Source: a virus. Taken from it: DNA of 24,971 bases. Shown piece after piece: positions 2,672 through 23,086 of this stretch. Location: the IMG/VR virus record IMGVR_UViG_3300002514_009218, positions 5 through 24,975 of that record; one strand, given 5' to 3'. Position 1 is the first letter of the stretch. Each line of letters opens with the position of its first letter. Made by a program: the position numbers and the translations under genes. The notes below the pieces were generated by a model. That model had not been told where the DNA came from and searched no databases. It saw only the letters and a program-made list of their open reading frames with translations.

Positions 2672-2992
2672 ATGAGGATTACTCAATCTCGAATTAAGCA
2701 GATAATCAAAGAAGAGCTTAAAAGGGTTCTAAAAGAAGACAATGATAATCCATACGGAGACACACCGGTTTCAGATACCGTGGCAGGAGCACAGCTCAGG
2801 TCCCTAGGTATGCTAGATGAGATTTGGGGCGGTGAAGGCGACGATATGATTTCCGGAACAGTTGAAAGCAGTGATGACTTTGATGACATGTCAAGAGAGA
2901 TAGATAGAATTGTAGGCGAGATAACTGCAGATTCTGGTCCTATCCTTGCTAAAGAAGATGATGATCAAGATGATTCACATACTGGAGAGTGA
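2672..2992 (+). CDS. Tagged acidic protein, 106 aa
   Basis: GGGGAG lies five bases upstream of the ATG. Residues 1-16 (MRITQSRIKQIIKEEL) are the clearest copy of the N-terminal tag shared by 13 proteins here. A helical extension follows, with an [IL]-x-E site at L20-K-E22. The remainder is very acidic and low in complexity (GGEGDDMISG, ESSDDFDDMSREIDRIVGEI, KEDDDQDD) and probably largely disordered. It has no signal peptide or known domain. It heads four tagged genes in a row. Function unknown; it may be virion cargo or an internal filler protein if the tag is a capsid-targeting signal. Confidence 0.8.
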   Translation: MRITQSRIKQIIKEELKRVLKEDNDNPYGDTPVSDTVAGAQLRSLGMLDEIWGGEGDDMISGTVESSDDFDDMSREIDRIVGEITADSGPILAKEDDDQDDSHTGE

Positions 2993-3033
2993 GAAAATCT
3001 TTAAAAGATTTAATCTATAATAGGAATTTTACC

Positions 3034-3369
3034 ATGAAGTTAAAAAGATCAGACATTAGAAAGATAATACAGGAAGAGATGACTAGAAAGTCAGAGATGC
3101 AAGAATTTGCGGAGAGTCGCGGAGGCGCCAAGGTTCGCCAGGCTGGAGACAAGGTCTCCTCAGCATCTAGGGCAATCAATGAGCTAGCAATGGAACAGAC
3201 AGGCCATATGAGAAGTTCTCTTGTTGAAATTTCAGAGTTTGTTGGAAAAATCGGGGAAACCCTTGCTGGCTTAGGAATGATCCAGGAGGGCGAGACGGCA
3301 ACAGACCGTATGCCAACTGTAAGTGAGCTCAAGAGGGTAACCAGAGCTATCCAGAAGCTGGAGAAGTAG
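3034..3369 (+). CDS. Tagged helical protein, 111 aa
   Basis: The frame is open back to a GTG at 2989, but ATG 3034 has AGGA eight bases upstream and begins exactly with the shared tag (MKLKRSDIRKIIQEEM), so I take 3034. After the tag the protein is helical and moderately charged (SASRAINELAMEQTGHMRSS, ending VTRAIQKLEK) with coiled-coil tendency. It has no cysteines, signal peptide or recognised domain. It follows the previous tagged gene by 41 bases and precedes the next by six, so the set is probably co-transcribed. Confidence 0.75.
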   Translation: MKLKRSDIRKIIQEEMTRKSEMQEFAESRGGAKVRQAGDKVSSASRAINELAMEQTGHMRSSLVEISEFVGKIGETLAGLGMIQEGETATDRMPTVSELKRVTRAIQKLEK

Positions 3370-3375
3370 GCTCTC

Positions 3376-4029
3376 ATGCGGATCACCCACTCACGTCTTG
3401 TCAGGTTGATAAGGGAGGAGCTCTCCCTTTCACTTAACCGTATAGACGAAGGTGTTGGTGCGCTGTCAAGGGTTATTCGTGATTTTTCAGATATGGTCGT
3501 TACGCCCAATGATAGGGATAGCGATTTATCAGTTATTCTCAATGACCTACATCACGGTGATCAGCTGGACTCTAGTGATCCATATGCTGGATGGGCCTCC
3601 GGATCTATCGCTGGATACGCCAGTGAGTGGGGAATTGAGAGCGCAGATGATGTTAGTGATCTTCTCAGTGATATAGACGAGATGGGTCTACCACTAGATC
3701 TAGGCCCACTTTCAGGCGTTATTAGCGATTTTCCCTCGATGGACTTTTTACAGGCTATTGGTGATATTATAAAAGAGTTTTCAGGAAGCACGCAGAGATC
3801 ATCTGACGATCTATCTACAGATCCCGAATGTTTCCTAACTGCTGGTCCTAATAGCTATTATGACTGTAACCCAAGACCAGGTTATGACTGCACATCTACT
3901 GTTGCTGGATCTGATTCCAAGTGTTATGTGTGGAAGAGTAAGGCTACTAACAACGACGGCGAATACGATATTATCGAGGTGCCATCTGGGGAGCCCAGAT
4001 GGACGAGATATTTCGTAAACGACCTTTGA
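3376..4029 (+). CDS. Tagged protein with Cys-containing C-terminal domain, 217 aa
   Basis: ATG 3376 begins the tag MRITHSRLVRLIREEL, followed by a possible cleavage site I23-D-E25|G. The middle (residues about 30-150) is acidic and looks helical. The last 70 residues contain four cysteines (ECFLTAG, YYDCNPRPGYDC, DSKCYVW) and beta-like segments, suggesting a small disulphide- or metal-stabilised domain. There is no signal peptide. If the Cys pairs form disulphides, the protein must fold or act in an oxidising place such as the host periplasm, which would fit delivery from the virion. Family unknown. Confidence 0.75.
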   Translation: MRITHSRLVRLIREELSLSLNRIDEGVGALSRVIRDFSDMVVTPNDRDSDLSVILNDLHHGDQLDSSDPYAGWASGSIAGYASEWGIESADDVSDLLSDIDEMGLPLDLGPLSGVISDFPSMDFLQAIGDIIKEFSGSTQRSSDDLSTDPECFLTAGPNSYYDCNPRPGYDCTSTVAGSDSKCYVWKSKATNNDGEYDIIEVPSGEPRWTRYFVNDL

Positions 4030-4056
4030 TATATTATATGAATATTTGGAAATATT

Positions 4057-5376
4057 ATGAAACTAACTAAAAAAATTATAAGAGAACAAATTCTCCTTGA
4101 GATCCGCAAGATGATTAACGAAGAGGGAGATGATTCTGCGTCTAATGTAGAAGTATTAAATGTTGATAGATGCGACGATCCTGATAAAAGAGTGGCACGA
4201 GTTAGATTTGGAGAAAATACGCTCAACTTTCATGTATCTTGGAAGGATGACTCTGAGACGTATTTTTTATATCTCTCACTTGATGATGATGGTTTTGGTC
4301 AAGCTCTTTCCCACGATCAGGTGAGTTGGCAAACGCATTTTTGGGAGAGCGGAAAAGAATATTCGGTCGATTTTTCAGGTGGGGATACCACTGTTGTTAG
4401 GCCTAGTGGCCCTGAAATGATGGCGGTGTACACTGACGTCGAAAGTAATGACTGGGCTGGTCCATTTACAAGCGAGCAACCAGTTCAGTCAATCTTGGAA
4501 ACCCTGGGTTATACTGGTCCTGAGGACCGAGCTTTTATAGATTCCACATGGTACGACGATGAAGCGGAAGACCCCGTTGCATCGCTCGAGGAGTACTTTG
4601 CTACATTTTTCGATTCAGCAACGCCATTTCTAAATACATTTAATGCAATTTCAGATCGTGACATAGTGGCTATAACAAGAGCAGTGAAAGAGCGGTGCGA
4701 TGTGGGCCCTGGTGATGTTCCAGAAGCGCCCGGGGATGAATCATATGGAGAAACTGATAGCCCTTCTGGTGAACTTGAAGGAAAAGAGGGTGACTGGCAA
4801 TATATTGTCTCAAGAACAGGGAATGATAATGAGCTGGGTGATCTGAATTCAGGGACCACCTGGAATTCAAGTAATGTTTTAAACATAACCATTGAGGTAG
4901 TTGACGGTCCAAATTCAATAGGATCAACTTTTGAACTTAGGGATATATACAACAGAGAGGGTCGTAATGTTTATGAATCTCACCCGCTTGTTTTGCAGGT
5001 CGTTGAATATCTTAATTCACTTGAAGAATGGCCTCCTCCATTATCACCAGATGAAGCTGAAGCTTCGGATATTGAGTTAACTGAGTTAACTCTTGATGCT
5101 TTTCTAGGCCGAGGGAGCATTAATACTGCTGGCACTTGGACGGCGGGATTTGAAAATGCACCCGCAACTGACATTGTGGAGTACATCTCGGATATTAACA
5201 GTCTGCATGGTGAAACTCTGGTGATTGGAGATGATGCTACTCTTCCGCGAATCTTTGAAGAAGATAATGAATCAAAAGGTGGCGGAGAGGTCATAGAAAT
5301 TTTATGGAATAATCTTGCCTCTGCCGGTGTTAAAGTTAGTATAGGAAGCGATAATAATATTTACGTTACTTCGTAA
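4057..5376 (+). CDS. Large tagged acidic protein, 439 aa
   Basis: ATG 4057 has GGAAAT upstream. The start (MKLTKKIIREQILLEIRKMI) is a looser version of the shared tag, with I20-N-E22 after it. The remaining 415 residues are acidic and beta-rich, with segments such as ARVRFGENTLNFHVSW and TYFLYLSLDDDGFG, then an acidic linker around residues 225-250 and a second unit to the end. It may be two or three domains of a secreted or virion type. I recognise no catalytic motif and no family. It ends the run of four tagged genes, and the following gap carries a new promoter. Confidence 0.75.
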   Translation: MKLTKKIIREQILLEIRKMINEEGDDSASNVEVLNVDRCDDPDKRVARVRFGENTLNFHVSWKDDSETYFLYLSLDDDGFGQALSHDQVSWQTHFWESGKEYSVDFSGGDTTVVRPSGPEMMAVYTDVESNDWAGPFTSEQPVQSILETLGYTGPEDRAFIDSTWYDDEAEDPVASLEEYFATFFDSATPFLNTFNAISDRDIVAITRAVKERCDVGPGDVPEAPGDESYGETDSPSGELEGKEGDWQYIVSRTGNDNELGDLNSGTTWNSSNVLNITIEVVDGPNSIGSTFELRDIYNREGRNVYESHPLVLQVVEYLNSLEEWPPPLSPDEAEASDIELTELTLDAFLGRGSINTAGTWTAGFENAPATDIVEYISDINSLHGETLVIGDDATLPRIFEEDNESKGGGEVIEILWNNLASAGVKVSIGSDNNIYVTS

Positions 5377-5392
5377 AAAATAAATTTTTTTC

Positions 5393-5421
5393 TTGTAAAC
5401 CACACTTGAAAACAGTATTAT
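5393..5421 (+). promoter_or_regulatory. Probable sigma70-type promoter
   Basis: TTGTAA (5393-5398) and TATTAT (5416-5421) are separated by exactly 17 bases. They lie upstream of a short gene with a good ribosome binding site and its own terminator. Confidence 0.45.
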
Positions 5422-5478
5422 TTTAATGATTGGCAATACATGCTAATCCTGTTTTCAATACAAGGGAGAATAAACAGA

Positions 5479-5712
5479 ATGAATTACAATAAGACTAAGA
5501 CAACCAAGCGATTCAACTTTACAGTTGCACGAAACAGCACTGCAAAGAAGGCAGGCTCAAACACAGTTACGATCGAGACACGTCCAGAATCCGGCGGATA
5601 TAGCTTTGGCGGAACTTCACTTACTATGACTGTTCGCGAAGCACAAGCACTTCAGGGATTTCTTAACAGTACCCTAAGTTATGAACCAAGTGATTCTAGC
5701 GATATTCTCTAG
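5479..5712 (+). CDS. Small basic protein in its own transcription unit (77 aa)
   Basis: An in-frame ATG at 5440 lacks a ribosome binding site, whereas ATG 5479 follows AAGGGAG (5463-5469), so I choose 5479. The product has a basic N-terminus (NYNKTKTTKRFNFTVARNST), a beta-like middle (SNTVTIETRPESGGYSFGG) and a C-terminal helix (MTVREAQALQGFLNSTL). A promoter upstream and a strong terminator downstream make this a monocistronic unit, which often means high expression in phages. It could be a small nucleic-acid-binding or anti-host protein. I do not recognise the family. Confidence 0.75.
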   Translation: MNYNKTKTTKRFNFTVARNSTAKKAGSNTVTIETRPESGGYSFGGTSLTMTVREAQALQGFLNSTLSYEPSDSSDIL

Positions 5713-5720
5713 TCTTAAAA

Positions 5721-5735
5721 GTTAATTAAATTAAC
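5721..5735. repeat. 15-base AT palindrome
   Basis: GTTAATTAAATTAAC is a perfect inverted repeat around a central A. It lies between the stop codon at 5712 and the terminator. It may be an operator, or may simply extend the structured 3' end. Confidence 0.35.
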
Positions 5736-5737
5736 TT

Positions 5738-5774
5738 GGAAGGTTCATTTTTTTTGAACCTTCCATTTTTTTTT
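5738..5774 (+). terminator. Strong rho-independent terminator
   Basis: GGAAGGTTCA (5738-5747) pairs perfectly with TGAACCTTCC (5755-5764) over a T-rich loop. A run of nine Ts follows (5766-5774). This is the clearest intrinsic terminator in the window. Confidence 0.9.
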
Positions 5775-5792
5775 GACTTTTTTAATTTTTTA

Positions 5793-5823
5793 TTGAATGT
5801 AATGCTGCTCTCAAGCTTATAAT
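5793..5823 (+). promoter_or_regulatory. Possible promoter with consensus -10
   Basis: TATAAT (5818-5823) is preceded by TTGAAT (5793-5798) at a long 19-base spacing. It lies just after the terminator and 32 bases before the next ATG, which is where a new transcript is needed. Confidence 0.45.
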
Positions 5824-5854
5824 ACATGCACACTTGGTGCAAATTGGAGATAAA

Positions 5855-6196
5855 ATGAGAAAATTAGCAATATGTGCATCAGTTGGATTTCTACTTTTTG
5901 GATTTTCAGCAGAGGCTCATCCTGTTCATCACAGCTCTTCACATCATAGGGCAAACTCTGGACATGGTAATCATGTCGTATCAATTTCATGGACCTGGAT
6001 TCAAGGTCATTGGGAAAGAGGTCACTGGGTTAGAGGTCACTGGAAACATCCGAGGCTAGGGGTATCCTATAGAGCATACGTTAGTGGGCCGCCATCAGCT
6101 TCTGTTGTACACAACAATAGGCACTGGGTATCTGGCCGGTGGGTAGGTCGCGGAGCTAACAGGCACTGGGTTCCTGGTCACTGGAAACGACGCTAA
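5855..6196 (+). CDS. Secreted WXXGXW-repeat protein, 113 aa
   Basis: ATG 5855 has TTGGAGAT upstream and gives a clean Sec signal peptide (MRKLAICASVGFLLFGFSAEA, cut before HP). The mature part is His/Trp-rich: HHSSSHHRANSGHG, then repeats of the form W-x-x-G-x-W (IQGHWERGHWVRGHW, HWVSGRWVGRG, HWVPGHWKRR). This matches the YXWGXW/WXXGXW repeat family of Gram-negative periplasmic or outer-membrane-associated proteins, whose role is poorly known. In a phage it should be exported into the periplasm, where it might alter the envelope or bind metal through its histidines. It follows a terminator and has its own promoter-like sequence. Confidence 0.85.
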   Translation: MRKLAICASVGFLLFGFSAEAHPVHHSSSHHRANSGHGNHVVSISWTWIQGHWERGHWVRGHWKHPRLGVSYRAYVSGPPSASVVHNNRHWVSGRWVGRGANRHWVPGHWKRR

Positions 6197-6250
6197 AAAT
6201 ATTCACAACCAATAGTAATAGTTATATTCATAACATGAGTGTAACCATCA

Positions 6251-6487
6251 TTGCTAAGAACGGGCGACATAGCAAAATTTTTTCTAATCGACGGTAATAA
6301 ATCTTTTTCATCAGTCGAAAAGGAAACATATACAGGAATTATTGTAAAATGTTTTAGGCCTAGTAATGATGGCGAAATCACTTACGAGGTTATGTGTGAC
6401 GATGGAAAAATCAGATTATTTCTGGATCACGAAGTCATAGATCACATTTCACTAATAGGAAGCTATGATAATCACAAAAAAATTTAA
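6251..6487 (+). CDS. Small SH3/KOW-like protein, TTG start (78 aa)
   Basis: A stop closes the frame at 6242, and TTG 6251 is the first usable codon, with GAGTG about nine bases upstream. The sequence (TGDIAKFFLID, YTGIIVKCFRP, ITYEVMCDDGKIRLFLDHEV) has the strand pattern of small SH3/KOW-like barrels that I associate with marine-phage proteins; this is recognition from memory. Function unknown. Its 3' end overlaps the next gene by 23 bases, so the two are likely translated together. Confidence 0.6.
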   Translation: MLRTGDIAKFFLIDGNKSFSSVEKETYTGIIVKCFRPSNDGEITYEVMCDDGKIRLFLDHEVIDHISLIGSYDNHKKI

Positions 6488-7166
6488 CAATCCCGTTTGT
6501 TATATACACATACCGAAGACTGGCGGAACATCAATAGGATCTGCACTTAAGTACAATAGAAATATTCACGGAGGAAGGCATGTACCGCTTAGTGAACATG
6601 ACATATCTGATAACATGTTCGTATTCACATTTGTAAGGGATCCTTTCGAGAGATTTATTGCATTTTTCTTTAAGCGGATGTGCCTACGTCATCATAAAAA
6701 GTATAAGAACATAGGTTTCAAGTTATCGAACAGCAAGCAGCTAAATAAATCAGACAATAAGATGCTAGCTGGACTATTTAATGACTGGGTGAAGAACTGG
6801 TACTCTGATTACTCATTAAACTATGAAGATAAAAAGTATGATAACATAGTCTGCAAATGGTCAATTATGCCCAACTCAATGACAAAAATGATACAACCTC
6901 TGGAAAGAGTTGACTTCATAGGAAAGTTTGAAAATATTGAAGAGGACTGGGGAAAACTTTTGATGAATCTTGGTAAAAGTGGTGTAATAGGAGACGTAAA
7001 GCGTATCAATAACATAAGCCACGAGAATAAAATTGGAGAAGGCATTAGCTACAGGAGGATAATACAACACATTGATAAGAAAGTTCTACTGTGTGTGCTG
7101 AATGCTTTTGAGGAAGACTTTTATAATTTTGGATATGACATTAAGAAATATAAGAAACTACTATAG
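6465..7166 (+). CDS. Sulfotransferase-family protein, 233 aa
   Basis: AGGAAG lies two bases before the ATG. The N-terminus contains the PAPS-binding loop (CYIHIPKTGGTSIGSAL, residues 12-28), and TFVRDPFERF (about 55-64) matches the second cofactor-binding strand. FIGKFENIEEDW in the second half is another family hallmark. The length suits the sulfotransferase family 2 (carbohydrate sulfotransferase) fold. The enzyme would move sulfate from PAPS to a sugar hydroxyl or a similar acceptor. In a phage it may modify host surface polysaccharide or a glycan on the virion; the acceptor is not visible from sequence. It is more AT-rich and Lys/Asn-rich than the left section. Confidence 0.85.
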   Translation: MIITKKFNNPVCYIHIPKTGGTSIGSALKYNRNIHGGRHVPLSEHDISDNMFVFTFVRDPFERFIAFFFKRMCLRHHKKYKNIGFKLSNSKQLNKSDNKMLAGLFNDWVKNWYSDYSLNYEDKKYDNIVCKWSIMPNSMTKMIQPLERVDFIGKFENIEEDWGKLLMNLGKSGVIGDVKRINNISHENKIGEGISYRRIIQHIDKKVLLCVLNAFEEDFYNFGYDIKKYKKLL

Positions 7167-7177
7167 AGATTTGCAAG

Positions 7178-7209
7178 TTGAATTTACGTTTTCTCTCAAT
7201 ACTTATAAT
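7178..7209 (+). promoter_or_regulatory. Possible promoter with consensus -10
   Basis: TATAAT (7204-7209) lies 32 bases before the ATG at 7241. The best -35 choices are TTGAAT (7178-7183, spacing 20) or TTTACG (7183-7188, spacing 15), and neither is ideal. The -10 context CTTATAAT is identical to that at 5816-5823. Confidence 0.4.
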
Positions 7210-7240
7210 GACATTTAATTGTTAAATAGGAGAAATTATT

Positions 7241-7645
7241 ATGAGACAGTTACTAGAGACAGTATGGAGCCTTATCTTGGGGCTTCTTTCAAATATCCAG
7301 GATCTTGCAGTTGTTTGTATCGTATTTGTGTATGATATTCTTTATCATCTGCATACATCCGCGCCGAGGCTTGAAGGACTCCTTGTAGGTGTTGCACTTG
7401 CCTGGCTCCTTCTTAGAAGAGAGAAGCATCCTGTTCTTAGAATACTTTCATCGCCTCTTAAGCTTATCCTTGATATACTTGATCTAGCTTGGGACCAGGT
7501 TGTTGAAGTTGTATCTGACGGTGTTTCAGTTTTAAAAGGGTGGGTACTAGGATCGCTTAGCTGGGTAAGAGATAGAGTTTTATCCGTATGGGGGCGTAGT
7601 CTTGATTGGCTTAAAGATTTAAAGAGTAAATTATCAAAAAAGTAA
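7241..7645 (+). CDS. Membrane protein with amphipathic C-terminus, 134 aa
   Basis: AGGAG precedes the ATG. The N-terminal half holds two hydrophobic stretches (about residues 8-37 and 45-58, e.g. LLVGVALAWLLL) followed by RREK. The second half is a long amphipathic region with regularly spaced Trp (DLAWDQVVEVV, GWVLGSLSWVRDRVLSVWG, DWLKDLKSKLSKK). It should be inner-membrane bound with a membrane-surface helix region. Holin-like or membrane-remodelling roles are possible, but no family is recognised. It ends just before a long perfect palindrome. Confidence 0.75.
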   Translation: MRQLLETVWSLILGLLSNIQDLAVVCIVFVYDILYHLHTSAPRLEGLLVGVALAWLLLRREKHPVLRILSSPLKLILDILDLAWDQVVEVVSDGVSVLKGWVLGSLSWVRDRVLSVWGRSLDWLKDLKSKLSKK

Positions 7646-7662
7646 AATTGTAGAACTTTCTT

Positions 7663-7698
7663 TTTCAAGGGTTGGAAATTAATTTCCAACCCTTGAAA
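7663..7698. repeat. Perfect 36-base palindrome
   Basis: The left arm 7663-7680 (TTTCAAGGGTTGGAAATT) is the exact reverse complement of the right arm 7681-7698. It follows the stop codon at 7645 by 17 bases and could act as a 3'-end hairpin. No proper T run follows on the plus strand, so it is not a standard terminator and could be a protein-binding site. A TTTATAATG box follows directly. Confidence 0.85.
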
Positions 7699-7759
7699 TC
7701 TTTATAATGTCAACTTATAGAATTAAAAGATATTTATATTCAATAGAAGGGAATTATTG

Positions 7760-9100
7760 ATGAAACTTGATTCAAGAGAGCTTAGAATTTTAATATTAGA
7801 AGAGCTTCAAAAAAAGATTTCAAATCGCATGCTTATATCTGAGGAAGCTATTCCAGATGATGCTAAGCAACAAATTCAAATACTGCTTAGCGATCCTGGC
7901 GTTATTAATGGAACAGACAGCACAAGAATTGGTGCACTTACATCTCTCGTAGGTGTATATACTCAGCCTCGGTTTAGAGGTGATAATGTAATGGATAGAT
8001 ATCTTGAAAGAATGCAAGAAATAGGAATAGAGGTTCCTGGCTCTGATAATCCTATTGCAAGAGTTGCAGATTTAAATTCTGATCTTGACATCTTGGTATC
8101 TAGCTTTGAACAAGCATTGCGACCAGTTCTAGATGGTGAAGTAGTTTTGCAAAAAGGATCATCGGGAACACAAGTCATAGCACTTCAGTCACTAGTAGCC
8201 TACGCACTATCAGACGCTGGACTTGATCCTGGAATTCTTGGAACATCTGGGGAAAATAACGATGGTATTGATGGAAATTTTGGCGGTAAAACAGAGGATG
8301 CAATTGAAGATCTTCAAGCTGAATATGGAATAGATGAAGATGGTGCAGTAGGAAGGCAGACAGCGACTGCAATAATGACACTTGGGCAAGATACATCTGC
8401 TGAGCCGACACGTCTTCCTTCGAGAAGTAGCAGCAGTGTTGACAGAGTTAGGCTTAGTATGGAAAATGCAACAAAACTGATGGCTCTAAGAGATGTATTT
8501 TTTGATGACACAGGCCCGTATGAATCTGAATTGTCATCCTTTAGCTGGTCATATGACGGCATAGAGGATATCTTAACTGTAAATGTTTCATCTGAAGCTG
8601 AAGCGATAATTACTGATATTCTAGGCTACGGAGCAGTAACAAGTTTAAAAATGATGGTTGACAAGATAGTAAGAGATAGTTTGGCTACATGTGGTGAAAT
8701 TAAAGTCGATCTCGAAGGCGAAGAGATCGACGCCTGGGGAGCTCTAAAATTAGATTCACATATTGGTGAAGACTCGACGGATATTATGTGGGCATGGCAA
8801 GATTGCCAAAGAGCCACATGGAATACCCTTTCTCAGTCTATTTCAACTACTGAGCTGATAGGTTTGGACATAATTCCGTGTGATTACGTCGGCTCAGATT
8901 GCTCAGAAGAAGATAAGGCTGCCTGGGATGACAATCATGTTGTCATTCTAGAGGATCCTGATGATATTGCAACGACAGCTGAATACTCAGACCACATTAG
9001 CCTTCTTTCTCCCAGCGGCAAAGTAATTGTAGGTGCTGAAGTTAGAAGTGTATTTGAGCAGTTAAATGAATGGCTTATAGCAAATAATTTGGATTCATAA
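7760..9100 (+). CDS. Tagged peptidoglycan-binding-domain protein, 446 aa
   Basis: An in-frame TTG lies at 7757, but ATG 7760 with AAGGGAA upstream is better and starts precisely with the shared tag (MKLDSRELRILILEEL). A possible cleavage site follows at I26-S-E28. Residues about 128-207 form a PG_binding_1-type domain: VLQKGSSGTQVIALQSL, an insert, then IDGNFGGKTEDAIEDLQ and DGAVGRQTATAI. The 240-residue C-terminal part has no motif I know. There is no signal peptide despite the wall-binding domain, which suggests delivery in the virion or release at lysis. It probably anchors a larger unknown activity to peptidoglycan. Confidence 0.85.
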   Translation: MKLDSRELRILILEELQKKISNRMLISEEAIPDDAKQQIQILLSDPGVINGTDSTRIGALTSLVGVYTQPRFRGDNVMDRYLERMQEIGIEVPGSDNPIARVADLNSDLDILVSSFEQALRPVLDGEVVLQKGSSGTQVIALQSLVAYALSDAGLDPGILGTSGENNDGIDGNFGGKTEDAIEDLQAEYGIDEDGAVGRQTATAIMTLGQDTSAEPTRLPSRSSSSVDRVRLSMENATKLMALRDVFFDDTGPYESELSSFSWSYDGIEDILTVNVSSEAEAIITDILGYGAVTSLKMMVDKIVRDSLATCGEIKVDLEGEEIDAWGALKLDSHIGEDSTDIMWAWQDCQRATWNTLSQSISTTELIGLDIIPCDYVGSDCSEEDKAAWDDNHVVILEDPDDIATTAEYSDHISLLSPSGKVIVGAEVRSVFEQLNEWLIANNLDS

Positions 9101-9183
9101 CACTATATTGTCCTGTAAAACTTCTCAATTATGATTATTATATTGATGTATTTATAAAACAGTATTAACTAACTTAGAGATAA

Positions 9184-9534: not shown

Positions 9535-9614
9535 TACTTACTGATTTATAGTAATTTTTAAATTAACTTTATAGTTAGTTTACCTTACAATTCACGATTA
9601 TCGAGAGAGATTAA

Positions 9615-10016: not shown

Positions 10017-10068
10017 TCAAACTGACAATATTTGAGAATATATATTTTTGTAGACAAATGGCAATATT

Positions 10069-10290
10069 ATGACTTTCACATCGAATCAGCTTAGAAATAT
10101 AATAAGAAATATTATTAAAGAGGAGTTAACTCTTAAAAATAGAAGATTGAACAACTATCAGTCATATTCAGGAATGAATGAGGATGATGAAGATATTGTT
10201 CCAGAAGATTTTGAAGGAACAACTCATATGGTTGGTGATTCAGAAGAGGCTGAAGAAGGTGGAGTAAATATTCGATCTTATTACGAGTAA
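10069..10290 (+). CDS. Tagged short acidic protein, 73 aa
   Basis: ATG 10069 begins MTFTSNQLRNIIRNIIKEEL, a slightly extended version of the shared tag with I16-K-E18. The rest is short, acidic and probably disordered (NEDDEDIVPEDFEG, DSEEAEEGG). There is no clear ribosome binding site; the leader is AT-rich. It resembles the product of 2672-2992 in build: tag plus acidic tail. It is followed seven bases later by the Nudix gene. Confidence 0.7.
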   Translation: MTFTSNQLRNIIRNIIKEELTLKNRRLNNYQSYSGMNEDDEDIVPEDFEGTTHMVGDSEEAEEGGVNIRSYYE

Positions 10291-10297
10291 TTTTATT

Positions 10298-10711
10298 ATG
10301 AGCAAAGACGGCGCTGGATTTTTAGTTTTTAAAAAAATTGATGATGAAATAAAAGTACTTGGACTTGTATCTCCTGTAGGAAAGATAGTTGAAAAGGGCG
10401 GAGTATATGATATTCCAAAAGGCGGAAAGCTTACTGGTGAGACAGATCTTGAGTGTGCCAAGAGAGAATGCTTTGAAGAGTGTGGAATTAAAATACTTGA
10501 TAGAGAAATTATAGGACCGGGAACAAAAATAGGAACCCTTATGCTTTATCCAGCATTTACATCAAGCGATCCTATCATTATGCCAAATCCTAAAAGCGGA
10601 ATAATAGAGCATTCTGGATGGGAATGGCTTGACTCAATAGACTTAATAAACAATTGTCAACTATGGTTAAGAGAAATTATAATTGCATGTCTTGAGTCAA
10701 TTGAGAAATAA
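10298..10711 (+). CDS. Nudix hydrolase, 137 aa
   Basis: A complete Nudix box is present: G42-x5-E48-x7-R56-E57-x2-E60-E61-x-G63, with the metal-binding glutamates intact. The preceding VYDIPKGGK is the usual lead-in (the IPKG pattern is typical of Ap4A/mutT-like members). The length is that of a single-domain enzyme. It would hydrolyse a nucleoside diphosphate linked to another group; phage members act on dNTPs, ADP-ribose, NAD or capped RNA, and the substrate cannot be read here. It lies in a short unit after a tagged gene, without a clear ribosome binding site, and ends at a bidirectional terminator. Confidence 0.9.
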   Translation: MSKDGAGFLVFKKIDDEIKVLGLVSPVGKIVEKGGVYDIPKGGKLTGETDLECAKRECFEECGIKILDREIIGPGTKIGTLMLYPAFTSSDPIIMPNPKSGIIEHSGWEWLDSIDLINNCQLWLREIIIACLESIEK

Positions 10712-10739: not shown

Positions 10740-10768
10740 AATAAAACAAAACAACGTTTAAAAAATAA

Positions 10769-11320: not shown

Positions 11321-11326
11321 GATCGT

Positions 11327-11387: not shown

Positions 11388-11478
11388 GCCTATTGGTATA
11401 TATTTCAGCTATAACAATATTTTTTGATTATTTTTAATCAAATTAATATTTAGTAAAGTATATCCGGAGATATTAGAA

Positions 11479-11802
11479 ATGAATATAACAAGATCTATGC
11501 TTAGAGAGATAATAGAGAAAGAAAGAAAAATTTTAAATGAGGACTGTGGGTGTGGATGCAATGGTTCCCCAGGGGGTTGTGGTGATTCATATGAAGATGA
11601 AGATATGAATATGAAAGATGTGAATATGGAAGATTTACCACAATTTATTGACTATGAAGAATCTTATGATTATGATATTGAAGCACCAATGATGTCAAAA
11701 GAAGAGTCTTTAAAAGCTGTATATGCTATTGCAAATTCAACTTCCTGCCCTTTGACTAGGGATGCGCTTTTGGGTGTAATATCTGACCTTATGCAATATT
11801 AA
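11479..11802 (+). CDS. Tagged protein with cysteine cluster, 107 aa
   Basis: CCGGAGAT precedes the ATG, and MNITRSMLREIIEKERKIL is the shared tag, followed by L19-N-E21. Immediately after comes a compact cluster, DCGCGCNGSPGGCG, with four Cys in 11 residues, then a Met/Asp/Glu-rich middle (YEDEDMNMKDVNMED) and a helical C-terminus (LKAVYAIANSTSCPLTRDALLGVISDLM). The cluster could bind a metal ion or form disulphides. The Met- and acid-rich part looks disordered. Function unknown. It is followed after four bases by the next gene. Confidence 0.75.
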   Translation: MNITRSMLREIIEKERKILNEDCGCGCNGSPGGCGDSYEDEDMNMKDVNMEDLPQFIDYEESYDYDIEAPMMSKEESLKAVYAIANSTSCPLTRDALLGVISDLMQY

Positions 11803-11806
11803 AAAT

Positions 11807-12268: not shown

Positions 12269-12326
12269 AAATTTTCGCATACTTAATAATTGTTGAATTC
12301 AAACTATTTAATTTGAGAAAGTTATA

Positions 12327-12572
12327 ATGAATTGTGAGACAAAATCATCTATAGAAAAGCTTAGAAAGCTAAGGGATGAACTATGCAAAAATCAAAAAAA
12401 ATGGGATGAAGCATTTAAAATAAAAGATGAAATTGTTACTGAATTAAAAAATCTGAAAGATTTTACTGAAAGTCCGAAGTCTACAAAGAAATGTATTTCT
12501 GGCAAGATTGATAATTTACTTATATTGCTAGATCCAGATCGTGAAAATGAAAAGGGGAATTGTGATGAGTGA
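12327..12572 (+). CDS. Small coiled-coil protein (81 aa)
   Basis: ATG 12327 has a weak GAGAAAG upstream. The product is almost wholly helical and charged, with heptad-like spacing (SIEKLRKLRDELCKNQKKWDEAFKIKDEIVTELKNL, shown here as a region about residues 8-43). It has Cys at 3, 20, 56 and 79. It overlaps the start of the next coiled-coil gene by eight bases, so the two are probably made together and may interact. No function can be named. Confidence 0.65.
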   Translation: MNCETKSSIEKLRKLRDELCKNQKKWDEAFKIKDEIVTELKNLKDFTESPKSTKKCISGKIDNLLILLDPDRENEKGNCDE

Positions 12573-12888
12573 CAGCGCAGACTGGAGTGAGTATTCAAGG
12601 CTCGTTTTAAATCAGCTTGAAACGCTTGCTACAAGTATTCAATCATTAAACTCTGAGATCCAAGAGCTTAAACAAGAAATAGCTAGAATGAGAGAGCGAG
12701 AAGATCGCGTGGATGAACTAAGAGCATGGAAAGATAAAATTGATGAAGTTGCATCTCCGACACAGTTGCAAGTTAAGTTTAATGAAGTTGAAGATTTGAA
12801 GCAATTTAAGACAAAAGCTATAACAATATTTGCTGTTGTTCAATTTGGAATGGCAGCTGCAATGTGGGCACTAAAGATATTTGAGTAA
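12565..12888 (+). CDS. Coiled-coil protein with C-terminal membrane anchor (107 aa)
   Basis: The frame is open from a GTG at 12541, but ATG 12565 has AAAGGGGAAT upstream and is a natural start (MSDSADWSEYSRLVL). A long coiled coil (about residues 15-60, e.g. LNSEIQELKQEIARMRERED) is followed by a linker and one C-terminal TM helix (AITIFAVVQFGMAAAMWAL). This layout, coiled coil plus tail anchor in about 100 residues, resembles XhlA-type holin-associated proteins and similar unnamed phage proteins. A lysis or membrane-tether role is a reasonable guess only. Confidence 0.7.
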   Translation: MSDSADWSEYSRLVLNQLETLATSIQSLNSEIQELKQEIARMREREDRVDELRAWKDKIDEVASPTQLQVKFNEVEDLKQFKTKAITIFAVVQFGMAAAMWALKIFE

Positions 12889-12965
12889 AATATTTTACTA
12901 GATTATAAAATATACATCCTGTGATTAATAATTAACATAGTAAGTATCTTAAATGGAGATTATAG

Positions 12966-13769
12966 ATGTCAAAAAGAAAGACTGTCAAGGTGACGCCTGA
13001 TTATATTAGAAGAATAATAGAGGAAGAGAAATCACTCTTATCACTCTCTAGGGCCAATGGCAAAAAGATAAAAAGAAACGATACTATGTTTATGACCCTA
13101 GAAGAGAGAAGAGTTCTTCAGAGAGTAATGATAGCAGAGCTTAGAGCTAGATTTTTAGAAGAGCATCCAGATCTTGTTAATGAAAATATATTTAGTGATC
13201 TTGGCGGAGCTGTAACTAGCGGAGTAGGTCACGCATGGGATACTGCAACTGACTGGGTCTCTAGTCTCACACCGTCCGGTGTAGTAGATACGATAGGTGA
13301 TCCGCTTCTTCAAACTTTTAAAGCAGATCTCGGAAGGTATGTTATCCAGGATATATTGCAAGTTCAGCCAGGACCTTTGCAAGCTGTGCTTGTAAATATC
13401 TTTGAGCAAATTCCTGTATCAGAATACTATTCAATATACAACAACTGGGATACCACAGGGTGCTATGCATTAACAGGATATATAGTTGATGGCTGTATTG
13501 AGGCACTTATCTTAGAGCCTATGACTGGTGCTTTAATGGATGCCATGTCACAAACAGTGGGAATATTTGCAATATTCGATCAGTACACTAGATCAGCCAG
13601 GACTCTTCAAGAGTACCTTAACGGAATTGTTCAAGAAACTGATCTTTACATCGGGTTTCAAGAAGAAGTAGAGCAGAAAGTATGCGGTATTGATTCTAGT
13701 GAATTAGGAGGTATTGTATCATCTGCATTGCCAAGTGGTGCAGGCCAAATGTTTGGTCTGGTAAATTGA
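12966..13769 (+). CDS. Tagged protein, 267 aa, unknown
   Basis: GGAGATTATAG precedes the ATG. The tag is preceded by six extra basic residues: KVTPDYIRRIIEEEKSLL at residues 8-25. A charged helical section follows (MTLEERRVLQRVMIAELRARFLEEHPD, about 43-69). Then comes a mostly hydrophobic body with moderate Gly content (FSDLGGAVTSGVGHAWDTATDW) and three Cys (TTGCYAL, DGCIEAL, KVCGID). It has no signal peptide and no clear TM helix, although GALMDAMSQTVGIFAIF is quite hydrophobic. No family recognised. It may interact with membranes when released. Confidence 0.75.
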   Translation: MSKRKTVKVTPDYIRRIIEEEKSLLSLSRANGKKIKRNDTMFMTLEERRVLQRVMIAELRARFLEEHPDLVNENIFSDLGGAVTSGVGHAWDTATDWVSSLTPSGVVDTIGDPLLQTFKADLGRYVIQDILQVQPGPLQAVLVNIFEQIPVSEYYSIYNNWDTTGCYALTGYIVDGCIEALILEPMTGALMDAMSQTVGIFAIFDQYTRSARTLQEYLNGIVQETDLYIGFQEEVEQKVCGIDSSELGGIVSSALPSGAGQMFGLVN

Positions 13770-14020
13770 GCAATAAAATACAAACTCTAAAGTTAATAAT
13801 AAAAAAGATTATTAACGAAGATATGTCTGATAATCGACAGCTTAAAGTTAGAAATTTTAAAGGTTACGGATCATCTCATGCACATGCAGAAAGAGTAGCT
13901 ACAAATTTAGGAATATCTCCCTCTGATAAGCTTTCTATTGATATAGATTCTGATATCAGTAGCGAAAAGAAAAAAGTTAAAGTTAGCAAAGCATTTTCAA
14001 AAAAATTAACAAGTAGATGA
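13766..14020 (+). CDS. Short tagged basic protein, TTG start (84 aa)
   Basis: TTG 13766 overlaps the previous TGA (TTGA), a coupled start. The N-terminus (SNKIQTLKLIIKKIINEDM) is a loose version of the tag with I16-N-E18. The body is basic and small (RQLKVRNFKGYGSSHAHAERVATNLGI, about residues 23-50; KKKVKVSKAFSKKLTSR at the end). It reads like a small structural or DNA-associated protein. The last 15 bases overlap the 3' end of the minus-strand metalloprotease gene. Confidence 0.65.
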   Translation: MSNKIQTLKLIIKKIINEDMSDNRQLKVRNFKGYGSSHAHAERVATNLGISPSDKLSIDIDSDISSEKKKVKVSKAFSKKLTSR

Positions 14021-14554
14021 GATTTCACAAAATCTAATTTCAAAATTTCTAGCTTCTTGCTCATCTTTTCTTACACATCTAATATCTTGCCTGTAGTGGA
14101 AGTATTCATGTGCAATTGTCATATTCATTGTTGAAGTTGGTATGTTTGTATTTACATACATCTCTCCAACTGATGGTTCGTGAAATGAGTCATATACACC
14201 CCACAGACTTTGATTCCCCCACAATTCCCAGACGAGAAAGCTCATGACATCCCTATTGTTAATAACACTATCAGGTAAAAGAAATAGTTTTAATGTAAGA
14301 TTTTGACAATTATCAACCTCAGGGCCAATCATTGATTTTGACTCTCTTAAGACTTGTCTAACTGTCTCAAGATTTATCCTTCTATTATCTGGATTATAAT
14401 AGACAATAACACCTTCCATCACTTGTGATTCCAGATTTACTTCACTCATCATTGCTGATAGGTGATTATCAACCCTTGTCCTTGCATTTGATATCGGGCT
14501 TGCAGTTAAAAATAGTAAAGATGCTGCCAGGGTTGTTTTTTTTATACTTAACAT
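14006..14554 (-). CDS. Secreted HEYFH zinc metalloprotease (182 aa)
   Basis: The N-terminus is a Sec signal peptide (MLSIKKTTLAASLLFLTASP, SNA at 22-24, cut before RT). The zinc motif HEYFH is at 149-153, within MTIAHEYFHYRQD. The glutamates E165, E167 and E172 downstream are candidates for the third ligand. Cys at 83, 160, 176 and 182 could form disulphides, as expected for a periplasmic enzyme. It is smaller than most metalloproteases. There is no ribosome binding site: TATAAT on this strand (forward 14561-14566) ends six bases before the ATG, so the message may be leaderless. It could cut host envelope proteins or process virion proteins after export. Confidence 0.8.
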   Translation of the reverse strand: MLSIKKTTLAASLLFLTASPISNARTRVDNHLSAMMSEVNLESQVMEGVIVYYNPDNRRINLETVRQVLRESKSMIGPEVDNCQNLTLKLFLLPDSVINNRDVMSFLVWELWGNQSLWGVYDSFHEPSVGEMYVNTNIPTSTMNMTIAHEYFHYRQDIRCVRKDEQEARNFEIRFCEISSTC

Positions 14555-14705
14555 AATTCTATTATACTATTTGTTTTTATCATTTACACGTAACAACCAC
14601 GGGACGAAAATATATAATAGTGATAACTAAACAGTAAATAGTGAACTAACATATCTCATCAAATATGTATGATATGAATATTAATCTATTTTGAGGTAAT
14701 TTAAA
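14555..14705. promoter_or_regulatory. Divergent intergenic region
   Basis: The gap separates the minus-strand metalloprotease from the plus-strand tagged gene. TATAAT boxes point both ways: forward 14613-14618, and reverse at forward 14561-14566. No good -35 is seen for either. GAGGTAA (14693-14699) serves the TTG start at 14706. Confidence 0.45.
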
Positions 14706-16202
14706 TTGAGACTTAACGAAAACGATTTAAGAAATTTAATTAGAAGATCCCTACTTGAATCATATAGAAAAAACGGGCTCTTGACTGAAAGTAAATTCAA
14801 GTTCGTGTTAAATGTATTTGAAGAAGGGGTGGGGCCAGGTGTCAGAAGTGCGGCGAAAATTGTAGATGATCTGGCTGAAGTGACGCAGCCACTGGCAGGT
14901 GGTGTGAGTCGTACAATGAGTGGACTCGCGAACGAAGTTACTACGATGGGCCCAGATGCCCTTGTTACAGCACTTAGAGGCAAGGGATATACACAGGAAG
15001 CTGCTGAGGTTATAGCAAGAGGTGTCAGTGGTGCAGGAGAGGTGGCAGGTGATGCCGTGTCATGGTGGGCTAGAACAGGAGGTGCCATTAGAGGTGGTAT
15101 AGGCTGGATCTTCAGCAATAAGTTGAAATCAACCGGAGTTATTGCAGGTCTGTTGGCTGCGTACGGTACAATCGAAGGTGTTGATGCATGGATTACTGGA
15201 CGAGCTGATCCAAATTGCGGATCTGCGTGCAAGCTTCGTGCAGCAACAAGCGACGACTTTGCTAGAATTGTCGGGGGTGCGATGAATGACATCGGATCAG
15301 ATCCATCAATTTCCGGTAGAAACTATCAACTATCTAGAGGTCAAGAAAAACCTGGCTGGACTACCGCATTGAATGAAGCGGCTGATGGGGGATGGTGGGA
15401 TCTTGATGAAATGAGCGAAAGTGAGCTCGCCGCGATTGCAACTATCTTAGAAGAATGCGAGACCTGCAGCCTCTATGGATTGTCTATGGCATCCACAGAC
15501 TATGACAACAGCAACCTTATTAGTAGTTGGAATAGAACTCTCTCCGAGAAGATAGAGGGTGACACCTCAGCCGCGCAGAATGATCTCATGAGATCTATAG
15601 TATCTAAAATAAATAGCCTTCCATTATTCTATATGAACTATACAGATATCAACGGAGAGAGCAAAGTAAATCAAGCTGTGTGGCAATGGGGCGAGCAATG
15701 GGCTTCGAATACAGCGGCGGTGATGGCATCTGCATATGATTTTGAGAGCATAAATACTGAGGAGGGACAAGTTTCATTTCCTGAGGATTCTGAGGAGGGT
15801 CTCGCGGGAGCAGTTGGGGGCACTGTTCGCACCACTACCGGTGGTACACTTTCAGGACTGGCAGAGGTTTTGGGCATGGCGCCGTCATCCCCGAGCGGCA
15901 CGGTTGCAGATAAAGTTAGATTAGATATTTCTAGGAATGCACACCCTTGTAATCAAGGAAATGAAGCTGCTACAAATGCAGCAGCTGCACTAGGTCTTAC
16001 ATGCGATAATAGGAACACTCGAGCATCTCCTTCTTTTGCACGGTTTAAATCAGGTGTGGTGGGAGGAATCCAGGGCCAGAATATTCCAACAGTTGATTTT
16101 GCAATTGATAAGCTTCAAACTGCTGTGGGATTGCCAAATAATGAAAATATATTTGATTTACTTATAAAATTTTATAATGATTACAGTATAGGAAGAGCAT
16201 GA
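14706..16202 (+). CDS. Large tagged Gly/Ala-rich protein (498 aa), possible membrane-active virion protein
   Basis: A stop in frame at 14697 leaves TTG 14706 as the only start that includes the tag (MRLNENDLRNLIRRSLLESY); GAGGTAA lies seven bases upstream. L26-T-E28|S is a good prohead-type cleavage match. Residues about 50-160 are Gly/Ala-rich and amphipathic, with hydrophobic parts (SWWARTGGAIRGGIGWIF, TGVIAGLLAAYGTIEGV), possibly membrane-inserting. Cys pairs (NCGSAC; EECETC; HPCN..LTCDN) suggest disulphides. The C-terminal 100 residues are a separate unit. It is more GC-rich than its neighbours. It may be an ejected pilot or pore protein. Its TGA overlaps the next ATG. Confidence 0.75.
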   Translation: MRLNENDLRNLIRRSLLESYRKNGLLTESKFKFVLNVFEEGVGPGVRSAAKIVDDLAEVTQPLAGGVSRTMSGLANEVTTMGPDALVTALRGKGYTQEAAEVIARGVSGAGEVAGDAVSWWARTGGAIRGGIGWIFSNKLKSTGVIAGLLAAYGTIEGVDAWITGRADPNCGSACKLRAATSDDFARIVGGAMNDIGSDPSISGRNYQLSRGQEKPGWTTALNEAADGGWWDLDEMSESELAAIATILEECETCSLYGLSMASTDYDNSNLISSWNRTLSEKIEGDTSAAQNDLMRSIVSKINSLPLFYMNYTDINGESKVNQAVWQWGEQWASNTAAVMASAYDFESINTEEGQVSFPEDSEEGLAGAVGGTVRTTTGGTLSGLAEVLGMAPSSPSGTVADKVRLDISRNAHPCNQGNEAATNAAAALGLTCDNRNTRASPSFARFKSGVVGGIQGQNIPTVDFAIDKLQTAVGLPNNENIFDLLIKFYNDYSIGRA

Positions 16203-17413
16203 TGAATATTAATGAAAAAGATATTATAGAAATAATAAAAGCTGAACTTTTATCTTTTTATAATGGATCTGTACTATCAGAGACTGTTGTTCTTGATGAC
16301 ACTGTATGCGCGGAGCTACAATGTGATGATGGAACATATACTACAGAGGAGTTTGAAAATATATGTGGAGGACTTTGTACTGACCAAATGCGCGCAGAAC
16401 GAACTTGCTGGGGAATGGAAAATTTTCCAAATAGGTGTGGAGATGATATTCCGGACTATGTAGATTCGGATGGACCTGCAGACACAACAGACCCAACAGA
16501 TCAAGCAGATCCAGCGCAATCAGATGACGCTGATGCACCGGCAGCAAGAGTTGCTGGAAGTGGAGGAACACTTCCTTTTAACTCTAGTGTTCAAGCTATG
16601 CAAAGAATACTAATGGATCCAGCACATGGAGCAGCAGCAACAACAAATCTATCATTTGGTGCTGATGGTAAGTGGGGGAGGCATACAAATGCAGCATGGA
16701 TAAAGTTTATACAGGGAAAACTTACATCCGATCAAGCTTTGAGAGTCGCTAGAGATTCATCTGGAAACGGAATAAGATGGGCTGGTTCAGGTCACAGTGC
16801 TGCTAGCGAAATTATGGGTAAAACATACGACGGCACACCGTCTGGTGCTCTACAATTTATAACTGATATTGCTGCATCTGACTCGCCGGCTGTTAGAGTA
16901 GCCACACAGGGTGGCTCTGGAGCTGCCGAGGTTGATCCCATTGGCATTGCACCTGGTGCTACTGGTGGAACAGATCAGGTTGCAACACAGACTCTCCAGG
17001 ACTATCCTATACTAGACTCAGATGGCAACACTGTCGTAATATTAAGAACATATCCAAGCACAGTTGAAAAATTTAGAAGAAGAGGGGTAGTTGGTAGATT
17101 TTTTGGAAGTGATTTAAACATAGTAATGACAGGTGCAGCAACATCAGCTGATGAAAAGTTTCAAATTATCTTTGGCGGAGAAAGCTGGGAGTATCTATTA
17201 AGAGATGTTACTGGATTAGCATTTGAAGAGACAGAGAGGAAACTGAAGCTGCCGTCTAACAGTCCCCTAAGACAAACTCATACAATGGGAAGAAAATATC
17301 AAAAACTCTCAGTATTTCTCGGAGGGAATCCAACGTGGGTCAGACTTGGCGGATGGTCTTTAAACGGCGCCCAGAGAAGAGATTTTTGGCGAGTTAAGCC
17401 TGGAACAGGATAG
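16199..17413 (+). CDS. Tagged, Cys-rich, PG-binding-like protein (404 aa)
   Basis: ATG 16199 overlaps the previous stop; ATG 16202 is equally possible and begins the tag exactly (MNINEKDIIEIIKAELLSFY), with L25-S-E27 after it, counting from 16202. Counting from 16199, residues 37-80 hold six Cys. A Pro/Asp/Ala linker follows (about 81-123), then a unit resembling a peptidoglycan-binding domain (VQAMQRILMDPAHG, FGADGKWGRHTNAAWIKFIQ, about 131-171). The C-terminal 150 residues (YPSTVEKFRRRGVVGRFFG, FQIIFGGESWEYLLRDV) are unrecognised. With the flanking M23 and SLT genes it fits a wall-targeted cargo set. No signal peptide. Confidence 0.8.
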   Translation: MMNINEKDIIEIIKAELLSFYNGSVLSETVVLDDTVCAELQCDDGTYTTEEFENICGGLCTDQMRAERTCWGMENFPNRCGDDIPDYVDSDGPADTTDPTDQADPAQSDDADAPAARVAGSGGTLPFNSSVQAMQRILMDPAHGAAATTNLSFGADGKWGRHTNAAWIKFIQGKLTSDQALRVARDSSGNGIRWAGSGHSAASEIMGKTYDGTPSGALQFITDIAASDSPAVRVATQGGSGAAEVDPIGIAPGATGGTDQVATQTLQDYPILDSDGNTVVILRTYPSTVEKFRRRGVVGRFFGSDLNIVMTGAATSADEKFQIIFGGESWEYLLRDVTGLAFEETERKLKLPSNSPLRQTHTMGRKYQKLSVFLGGNPTWVRLGGWSLNGAQRRDFWRVKPGTG

Positions 17414-17416
17414 AAT

Positions 17417-18139
17417 ATGAAAATTTCTGAATCAGAAATAAGAGGTATAATATCTGAAGAAATTGATAAAGTTTTATTTGAAAAGATTCAAGGGAGATCG
17501 AGAACATCAAGTAATCCTGCTATAAATATAGGTGTTTCCAAAATAGGCACTTTATCAACTATAAATACATCCTACGGAACAATTATCCTTGATGATCCCG
17601 ATGCTAGCTACATGACACCTGTTCCAGTATTAGATCCGGGTGACTTAGAATATTTTGAGAGTGTTCTTGGATCAAAACCTTCAGCTGACAGGGGTGGAAG
17701 AGCTCATACTGGATGGGATATAACAGTTCCAGCTGGAACACCGGTAGCAGCAATAGCTGACGGTGTTGCAAGAGTTCATAGAGAGGGCAAATGCGGATGG
17801 GGTGTTACCATTACGCATAGCGATCAAAATATTAACAAGACAATATATTGTCACTTATCACAAATAAATGTTTCAAATGGCCAAAATTTAACAATGGGGG
17901 AAATAATAGGGTTATCAGGAGGTCTCGAGGGTGCGGTGGGATCTGGAAATAGTACGGGAGCACATCTTCACTTTAGCATAGATCAATCAATAAACCCAGG
18001 TGTATATCGAGCAATATTTAATAATGCAAGCACATGGACAATTGGAAATGATACACGTGCATTGGCTGCAGCAGAATCTGATATAGAAGATGATAGCACA
18101 GAAGAAGATGATGATAATGAAATAGTGATAGTTATATAG
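17417..18139 (+). CDS. Tagged M23-family endopeptidase (240 aa)
   Basis: The start MKISESEIRGIISEEIDKVL is the tag, with L20-F-E22, then the motif EKIQGRS shared with the next gene. Residues about 80-195 are an M23/LytM zinc endopeptidase: GRAHTGWDI (H97, D101), TIYCHLSQI (H146) and GAHLHFSI (H183, H185), so the Zn ligands and catalytic histidines are intact. It should cut peptide cross-links in peptidoglycan. The C-terminus is a run of acidic residues ending IVIVI. There is no signal peptide, so it reaches the wall from the virion or at lysis. It starts four bases after the previous stop. Confidence 0.9.
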   Translation: MKISESEIRGIISEEIDKVLFEKIQGRSRTSSNPAINIGVSKIGTLSTINTSYGTIILDDPDASYMTPVPVLDPGDLEYFESVLGSKPSADRGGRAHTGWDITVPAGTPVAAIADGVARVHREGKCGWGVTITHSDQNINKTIYCHLSQINVSNGQNLTMGEIIGLSGGLEGAVGSGNSTGAHLHFSIDQSINPGVYRAIFNNASTWTIGNDTRALAAAESDIEDDSTEEDDDNEIVIVI

Positions 18140-18167
18140 TTATGGTTATTGAAAAAGGATTTATAAA

Positions 18168-18827
18168 GTGGAATATCTTACATTAAAAACTATTAATAAT
18201 TTAATAGTAGAAGAACTAGAAAAGATACAAGAGAAAATACAAGGAAGATCACAAGGCGATTTGGGAAATATTATTAGAATTGGATCAGATCAAAGTTTTA
18301 AAATAGATGTTTCAGATACAGGTTCTAATATAGAATACTCTCAAACAGCGGAAGAAATATCAGAAGAATATAATATATCCCTAGAAGAGGCTCAGAAAGT
18401 AGTCGATATATCGGAAAATTTAAGAACTAACCCTGGGTGGATAGCAAAGATAATAGATGTTGAGTCGGCAGGAACATGGAATCCTGCAGAACCTAACAGA
18501 GCAGGATCAGGTGCAACTGGTCTAATTCAATTTATGCCTGATACAGCAACTGGACTTGGTACAAGTACGACTGAGCTTGCTGGTATGACTGTAATTGAGC
18601 AGCTTGATTACGTTGAGAAGTATTTTATGTCATACGTGGGAAAACTTGATAGCATGGAAGACGTTGCTGCTGCAGTATTTTTTCCCGCTGCGCTTGATCA
18701 AGGGTTAGATTTCGATATATATCAGTGGTATATATCAAATAGAGGTCAAGGGGCAGCAGATGTATTTAGACGACAAAATCCCAATATTATAACAATGGGA
18801 GATTATGTAAGGTCATATCTAACTTAA
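18168..18827 (+). CDS. Tagged SLT-type lytic transglycosylase (219 aa)
   Basis: GTG 18168 has AAAAAGGAT upstream. The N-terminus (MEYLTLKTINNLIVEELEKI) is a divergent tag with I20-Q-E22, then EKIQGRS as in the previous gene. Residues about 88-215 match the SLT/lysozyme-like fold: IIDVESAGTW with catalytic Glu99, and SGATGLIQFMPDTATGLG. It should cleave the glycan strand next to MurNAc and form the anhydro product. The last nine bases overlap the minus-strand metalloprotease. Together with the M23 enzyme it gives cuts in both glycan and peptide. Confidence 0.9.
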   Translation: MEYLTLKTINNLIVEELEKIQEKIQGRSQGDLGNIIRIGSDQSFKIDVSDTGSNIEYSQTAEEISEEYNISLEEAQKVVDISENLRTNPGWIAKIIDVESAGTWNPAEPNRAGSGATGLIQFMPDTATGLGTSTTELAGMTVIEQLDYVEKYFMSYVGKLDSMEDVAAAVFFPAALDQGLDFDIYQWYISNRGQGAADVFRRQNPNIITMGDYVRSYLT

Positions 18828-23065: not shown

Positions 23066-23086
23066 TATAATGATTATGGAGAAAAA

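Follow-up and report, generated by a model that had tools for sequence, protein, structure and literature searches.

A 24,971-nucleotide stretch of DNA from an uncultured phage, an IMG/VR record of about 25 kb referred to here as the window, encodes 13 proteins that begin with variants of one short N-terminal segment, hereafter the tag, which we propose carries otherwise unrelated proteins into phage heads. All 13 starts lie at the coordinates given in an earlier reading of the letters alone (the original prediction), which had described a shared segment of 16–20 residues on carriers of 73 to 498 amino acids. When window N-termini were scored with a position-specific scoring matrix (PSSM) trained on other contigs only, 12 of the 13 tags reached 10.6–35.6 bits, whereas all 24 of the 24 untagged window genes scored fell at or below -5.8 (Mann–Whitney p=3.8e-7, tagged versus untagged), so that the N-termini align better than chance resemblance would allow. 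Composition shuffles gene by gene give p<=0.002 for these 12 and p=0.007 for the product of the frame at 13766, which starts at a TTG codon and scores -0.2 bits; the claim of a common tag is therefore solid for 12 proteins and only marginal for this weakest one. The carrier lengths are right, and the length of the tag has to be revised to about 22 residues, since the segment extends to another conserved [I/L]-x-E at residues 19–22. At least one site of the [I/L]-x-E type occurs in 13 of 13 window tags, and two or more in most.

All the carriers lie on the plus strand, and each offers at least one candidate cleavage site after a glutamate of this kind. The first, an acidic protein of 106 amino acids (2672–2992; MRITQSRIKQIIKEELKRVLKE; PSSM 35.6), holds IKE14 and LKE22, with the proposed cut after E22 (nucleotide 2737). 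It is followed by proteins of 111 amino acids (3034–3369; MKLKRSDIRKIIQEEMTRKSEMQE; 26.8; candidate cuts E14/E24), 217 amino acids (3376–4029; MRITHSRLVRLIREELSLSLNRIDE; 26.1; E14/E25) and 439 amino acids (4057–5376; MKLTKKIIREQILLEIRKMINE; 15.2; E22), the last without a Pfam or PHROG match. The 111-residue product has a tagged homologue in L072 that is 46% identical and whose mature part starts at the equivalent SEMxEF; the Cys-rich, acidic protein of 107 amino acids at 11479–11802 (MNITRSMLREIIEKERKILNE; 22.4; E21) has another there, at 30% identity. Further carriers are an acidic protein of 73 amino acids (10069–10290; MTFTSNQLRNIIRNIIKEELTLK; 11.9; E18), one of 267 amino acids whose tag begins only at about residue 7 (12966–13769; VKVTPDYIRRIIEEEKSLL; 18.5 at offset 6; E19/E20), the marginal 84-residue candidate (13766–14020; MSNKIQTLKLIIKKIINEDMSDN; E18), a TTG-started protein of 498 amino acids (14706–16202; MRLNENDLRNLIRRSLLESYRKNGLLTE; 13.5; E18/E28) and one of 403 amino acids (16202–17413; MNINEKDIIEIIKAELLSFYNGSVLSE; 11.0; E27).

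The recognisable domains among the window carriers are related to the cell wall: a peptidoglycan-binding domain (PF01471, E=7.7e-9) in a 446-residue protein (7760–9100; MKLDSRELRILILEELQKKISNRMLISE; 16.6; E14/E28), an M23 metallopeptidase of 240 amino acids (17417–18139; PF01551, E=1e-19; MKISESEIRGIISEEIDKVLFE; 27.5; E14/E22) and a GTG-started SLT-type transglycosylase of 219 amino acids (18168–18827; PF01464, E=8e-5; MEYLTLKTINNLIVEELEKIQE; 10.6; E22), whose PHROG matches belong to the baseplate-hub and lysis categories. Pfam and PHROG scans gave nothing significant for the other large window carriers that were scanned, and a pattern search of IMG/VR returned no close relatives of the M23 protein. 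L136, which is the window's nearest relative, encodes a different protein, of 893 amino acids (L136:2340–5021), that has a tag-like start, an internal tag-like segment (NITRNLLDTIESLILEELSKKKVVSE) and then an M23 domain homologous to that at 17417.

Beyond the window, a strict DNA pattern for residues 1–15 matched at least 120 stretches of viral contigs, and a hidden Markov model (HMM) built from these and other loci yielded 390 distinct tags. They occur often in large contigs of uncultured phages belonging to the T4 capsid lineage, with up to 41 copies per genome. BLASTP sorts the 386 mature parts left after removal of the tag into 278 families, and 235 of these have a single member. When each family is represented by one protein, the information per column reaches 3.3–3.9 bits at M1, K2, I3, T4, L8, I11, I12 and E14, lies at 0.4–0.8 bits over residues 17–22 and stays at or below about 0.2 bits from residue 23 onwards; columns 1–15 are partly fixed by the search pattern, and the boundary and the second site (residues 16–22) lie outside it. 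The sharp drop in conservation that had been predicted is thus borne out on outside sequences, and we found no homology past the N-terminus of the sort that a shared catalytic or folded domain implies, information being at background at residue 23. We found no description of the tag in the literature searched, which was mostly open-access and without bioRxiv preprints: a search with the letters of the tag gave nothing relevant, excerpts of a jumbo-phage overview (PMC7824862) and of a paper on an aquatic jumbo-phage lineage (PMC12619734) do not describe it, and no title or abstract seen with the phrase "capsid targeting sequence" mentions it.

The end of the tag resembles a proteolytic site. 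The prohead protease gp21 of phage T4 cuts after L/I-X-E, according to excerpts of PMC9026906, and this motif stands at the tag end as it does in T4-type capsid-targeting sequences (CTS): 98% of strict tags have I, L or M at residue 12 ahead of E14, and 67–72% of tags (67% of the 390) have another [I/L/M/V]-x-E that ends at residues 18–26, as against 26% when residues 16–30 are shuffled and 18.5% for N-termini without a tag. Positions 20 and 22 are coupled (at E22, 113 seen against 56 expected, p=3e-37), this second site shifts its register by a few residues, and it is followed mainly by residues that are small or polar (G, A, E, Q, S). Where residue 15 is A or S the second site is rarer (43%, against 74% with E15; p=3e-5), as would be expected if E14-A/S can itself serve as a cut. 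These sites could instead reflect nothing but the composition of a helix that docks proteins to the head or its core and is kept uncut, and residues 5–21 are indeed strongly amphipathic (hydrophobic moment 0.42, versus 0.28 shuffled), the tag occurring also on two genes of the head operon described below. Such an uncut docking helix seems to us unlikely, however, since the second site is a coupled pair floating over residues 19–22 at a frequency above both shuffles and column independence, its presence depends on residue 15, and conservation ends right after it.

The tag also behaves as a module. The homologue in L136 of an untagged HEMTH metallopeptidase-like protein in the window (18819–19256, minus strand) is tagged, with 68% identity over 128 amino acids; this protein (L136:5035–5532, minus strand) begins MKITSEKLIRIIREEVENQ, and the two form a natural tagged/untagged pair. 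A second case joins the tagged polynucleotide-kinase-like protein L045 to an untagged homologue in Ruegeria phage RpAliso; the start codon of the homologue coincides with residue 24 of L045. Tandem tags, two or more to a frame, were seen in sixteen open frames (in L024, L052, L079, L224 and others), in some cases with one tag at the C-terminal end, which suggests cargo polyproteins or two-ended propeptides. Cargo domains that can be recognised include M23 peptidase, L,D-transpeptidase, RNA-repair, kinase, exonuclease, GNAT and DnaJ; most cargo had no match in domain searches. Three further loci (L009, L046 and L170) encode tagged or tag-ended small proteins of about 46–48 amino acids, or the end of a longer one, that have a C-terminal ...DIIGHT motif in common. 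Runs of adjacent tagged genes, such as the more than 20 at G001:47–57 kb, suggest duplication or recombination and might mean that gene-start copies spread as a recombination or translation-start cassette, acting as DNA with no role for the protein. We regard this as very improbable: every codon for Ile, Thr and Leu is used at conserved tag positions, and such free codon variation, with the amino acids kept across 278 families, means that selection acts on the protein; tags also occur within proteins and at their C-terminal ends. The 278 unrelated families and the presence or absence of the tag on homologues of the same domain support instead the original suggestion of a sorting or loading signal in place of a shared catalytic domain.

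That suggestion gains further weight from the near-exclusive occurrence of the tag with a T4-type prohead protease, S77 (gp21, PF03420), whose cleavage motif the tag contains. S77 is present in 10 of 10 tagged records longer than 150 kb and in 17 of 18 of at least 120 kb; among untagged contigs of at least 100 kb from a random 14-mer sample (n=6), one exceeds the cut-off and one more has a weak match (Fisher p=8e-4, or p=0.006 with the weak match counted). The window's untagged SpoVR protein served as a bait independent of the tag, and 80 loci were kept from its relatives, which occupy at least 247 stretches of viral contigs, several in jumbo-sized genomes. Relatives drawn in this way carry S77 in six of the six checked that reach 120 kb, and seven of eight scanned for the tag (all of at least 98 kb) hold 2–15 copies. 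The random sample's only multi-tag contig, G079, has S77 adjoining its tags, and in several records the protease gene lies next to tag genes or is enclosed by them. Of the 19 tags in the 484-kb huge phage LR756508, several lie around S77, and the cultured Flavobacterium phage immuto, known from three near-identical isolates, has three tags together with S77. In an alignment of proteases from tagged phages with T4 gp21, H85 and S140, which we take to be catalytic, are invariant. When 84,980 prokaryote genomes were scanned once with the strict pattern, it matched six stretches in four metagenome-assembled genomes (MAGs), two of which also carry S77; on these counts a bacterial, non-phage origin of the tag was rejected. 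One of the MAGs, assigned to Methylococcaceae, owes its hits to a 306-kb contig (NHDW01000006.1; L278, L282) with about 30 tags and S77, evidently a misbinned phage. The contig PBIO01000025.1 (L279, L281) of a Halobacteriovorax MAG is apparently a misbinned phage contig as well.

Head genes of the relatives point to a destination. G001 holds a T4-type module of terminase, portal (PF07230, 4e-76), gp21 (PF03420) and major capsid protein (PF07068, 8e-75), so that S77 occurs there with the T4-type portal and capsid. It also has two tandem major capsid protein genes (L230:16269–18167; copy at G001:178261–180150) that start identically and are almost the same length. Most of 23 S77 loci have, 0–550 nucleotides downstream of gp21, a gene that we call X (about 140 amino acids), whose product starts approximately M-x-K-[IVLM]-[TS]-[RK]-x-x-L-K-x-[IL]-[VI]-K-E-C-[LI]-V-E-[IV]-L-x-E-G, which is the tag including its second site; the gene after it, Y, starts approximately K-[LI]-T-P-x-x-L-[KR]-[RK]-[IL]-[IV]-x-[EQ]-E. 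With X- and Y-like sequences excluded from PSSM training, 14 of 23 head loci have an X that reaches 14.8 bits or more and 13 of 23 a Y that reaches 11.8 bits or more, while other genes at these loci score below 0 unless tagged. The N-terminal segment is the best-conserved part of the X family, and an AlphaFold model of X has a confident helix at residues 6–27 and is mostly of low confidence after it. Neither X nor Y matched a Pfam family or an informative PHROG; from their position between gp21 and a gp22-like gene we infer that they are prohead core proteins. Because X and Y stand among head-assembly genes and cargo proteins share their N-terminus, we propose the prohead core as the destination of the tag and the S77 protease as its processing enzyme, both of which go beyond the original prediction. 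Sorting to some other site in the infected cell (the replication site, a membrane or the host nucleoid), or binding of nucleic acid, with cargo that never becomes virion material, would fit the basic first half of the tag, where K or R is common at residues 2, 5, 6, 9, 10 and 13, and the RNA-repair, exonuclease and acetyltransferase domains among the cargo. It would leave unexplained the near-restriction to S77 phages, the I-x-E end and the presence of the tag on the conserved X and Y, which stand between gp21 and a gp22-like gene, and we give it little credence.

Taken together, these observations make it probable, in our judgement, that the common segment at these protein starts is a propeptide for capsid targeting, which the S77 prohead protease would cut off so as to free the cargo inside the head. 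The amphipathic helix would dock proteins onto the prohead core, probably beside X and Y as putative core proteins with the same helix; during head maturation the gp21-type protease would cut after [I/L]-x-E at residue 14, at about residue 22 or at both; and the unrelated domains so released would be packaged with the DNA and probably ejected alongside it. Several points weigh against this proposal. The window itself contains no head genes, and its link to S77 runs through relatives. [I/L]-x-E is a weak motif that is common in amphipathic helices, and some tags are internal or C-terminal (C-terminal in L079, L090 and L073). One tagged record of 147 kb, G014, lacks S77, the single exception; conversely T4, KVP40, the cyanophages S-PM2 and P-SSM2, HTVC008M, RM378 and Cr30 have S77 and no tag, so that the tag marks only some of the phages with S77. 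The phage phiKZ has no copy of the tag and no Pfam S77 match, and phage G has no tag. The T4 internal proteins IPI–III give no significant PSSM match, and the tag HMM finds nothing in T4; the T4 late motif TATAAATA was uninformative as a late-promoter signal in G001; and the literature searched held no virion proteomics for any tagged phage.

We lean slightly towards a wider view, in which a large phage lineage, most of it uncultured and with heads of the T4 type, has made capsid targeting an all-purpose means of delivering proteins. A cleavable tag that works as a module, and that either derives from the prohead core or is shared with it, would have been grafted onto dozens of proteins per genome, among them cell-wall hydrolases, RNA-repair enzymes, nucleases, acetyltransferases and many unknowns, so that heads would serve as capsules loaded with effectors, and the injected proteome could be read from the tag. 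If the proposed role of the tag is right, a 22-residue signature would pick out, from sequence alone, those among the many genes without annotation in abundant uncultured phages whose products are carried in the head and reach the next host first. Such genes would be leading candidates for proteins that counter host defences or take over the cell early; the founding case is IPI of T4, which blocks a restriction enzyme of the host. The tag would also provide a ready-made means of protein loading in a second phage system, and its link to X and Y would open the recruitment of cargo to the prohead core to genetics and structure.

The untagged genes of the window include a complete yeaH(DUF444)–spoVR–prkA operon at 20587–24971 on the plus strand (PF04285, PF04293, PF08298/PF06798). 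Among them, inspection by eye also suggests a sulfotransferase-like protein (6465–7166), a NUDIX-like protein (10298–10711), a secreted protein with HEYFH (14006–14554, minus strand) and a trypsin-like secreted protein (19608–20432, minus strand).

Among known systems, the many unrelated head proteins with X-X-E-type sites in the phiKZ-like giant phages (phiKZ, 201phi2-1, SPN3US) offer one parallel; they are cut after X-X-E by a gp21-like protease, as excerpts of PMC9026906 and PMC10052503 state. In contrast with the tag, the phiKZ motif in these excerpts is S/A-X-E, and the SPN3US propeptides are mostly long (111–254 amino acids) and are not described there as sharing a common tag. T4 offers a second parallel. 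Its prohead core proteins are gp21 substrates (excerpts of PMC9026906), and X and Y sit where small core proteins such as gp67, gp68 and gp22 would be expected, although these T4 proteins lack the tag. Homology of the tag to T4 gp67, gp68, gp21, gp22, gp23 or IPI–III was unsupported by sequence comparison. The T4 internal proteins carry N-terminal capsid-targeting propeptides of 10–19 residues, and the 10 residues of the CTS are enough for the loading of foreign proteins and are removed by cleavage afterwards (excerpts of PMC9026906). Like the CTS of IPI, IPII and IPIII (IPII and IPIII start MKTYQEFIAE-A), the tag is a short, propeptide-like N-terminal segment with an MK start and an I-x-E end on several unrelated proteins, in phages with an S77 prohead protease and a T4-type portal and capsid. 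Unlike the CTS, it has 22 residues and two I/L-x-E sites rather than 10 residues, up to 41 carriers per genome rather than a few, and internal, tandem and C-terminal copies, and it is found on X and Y of the head operon. Our best reading, for which we claim no homology, is that the tag would work as the T4 CTS does.

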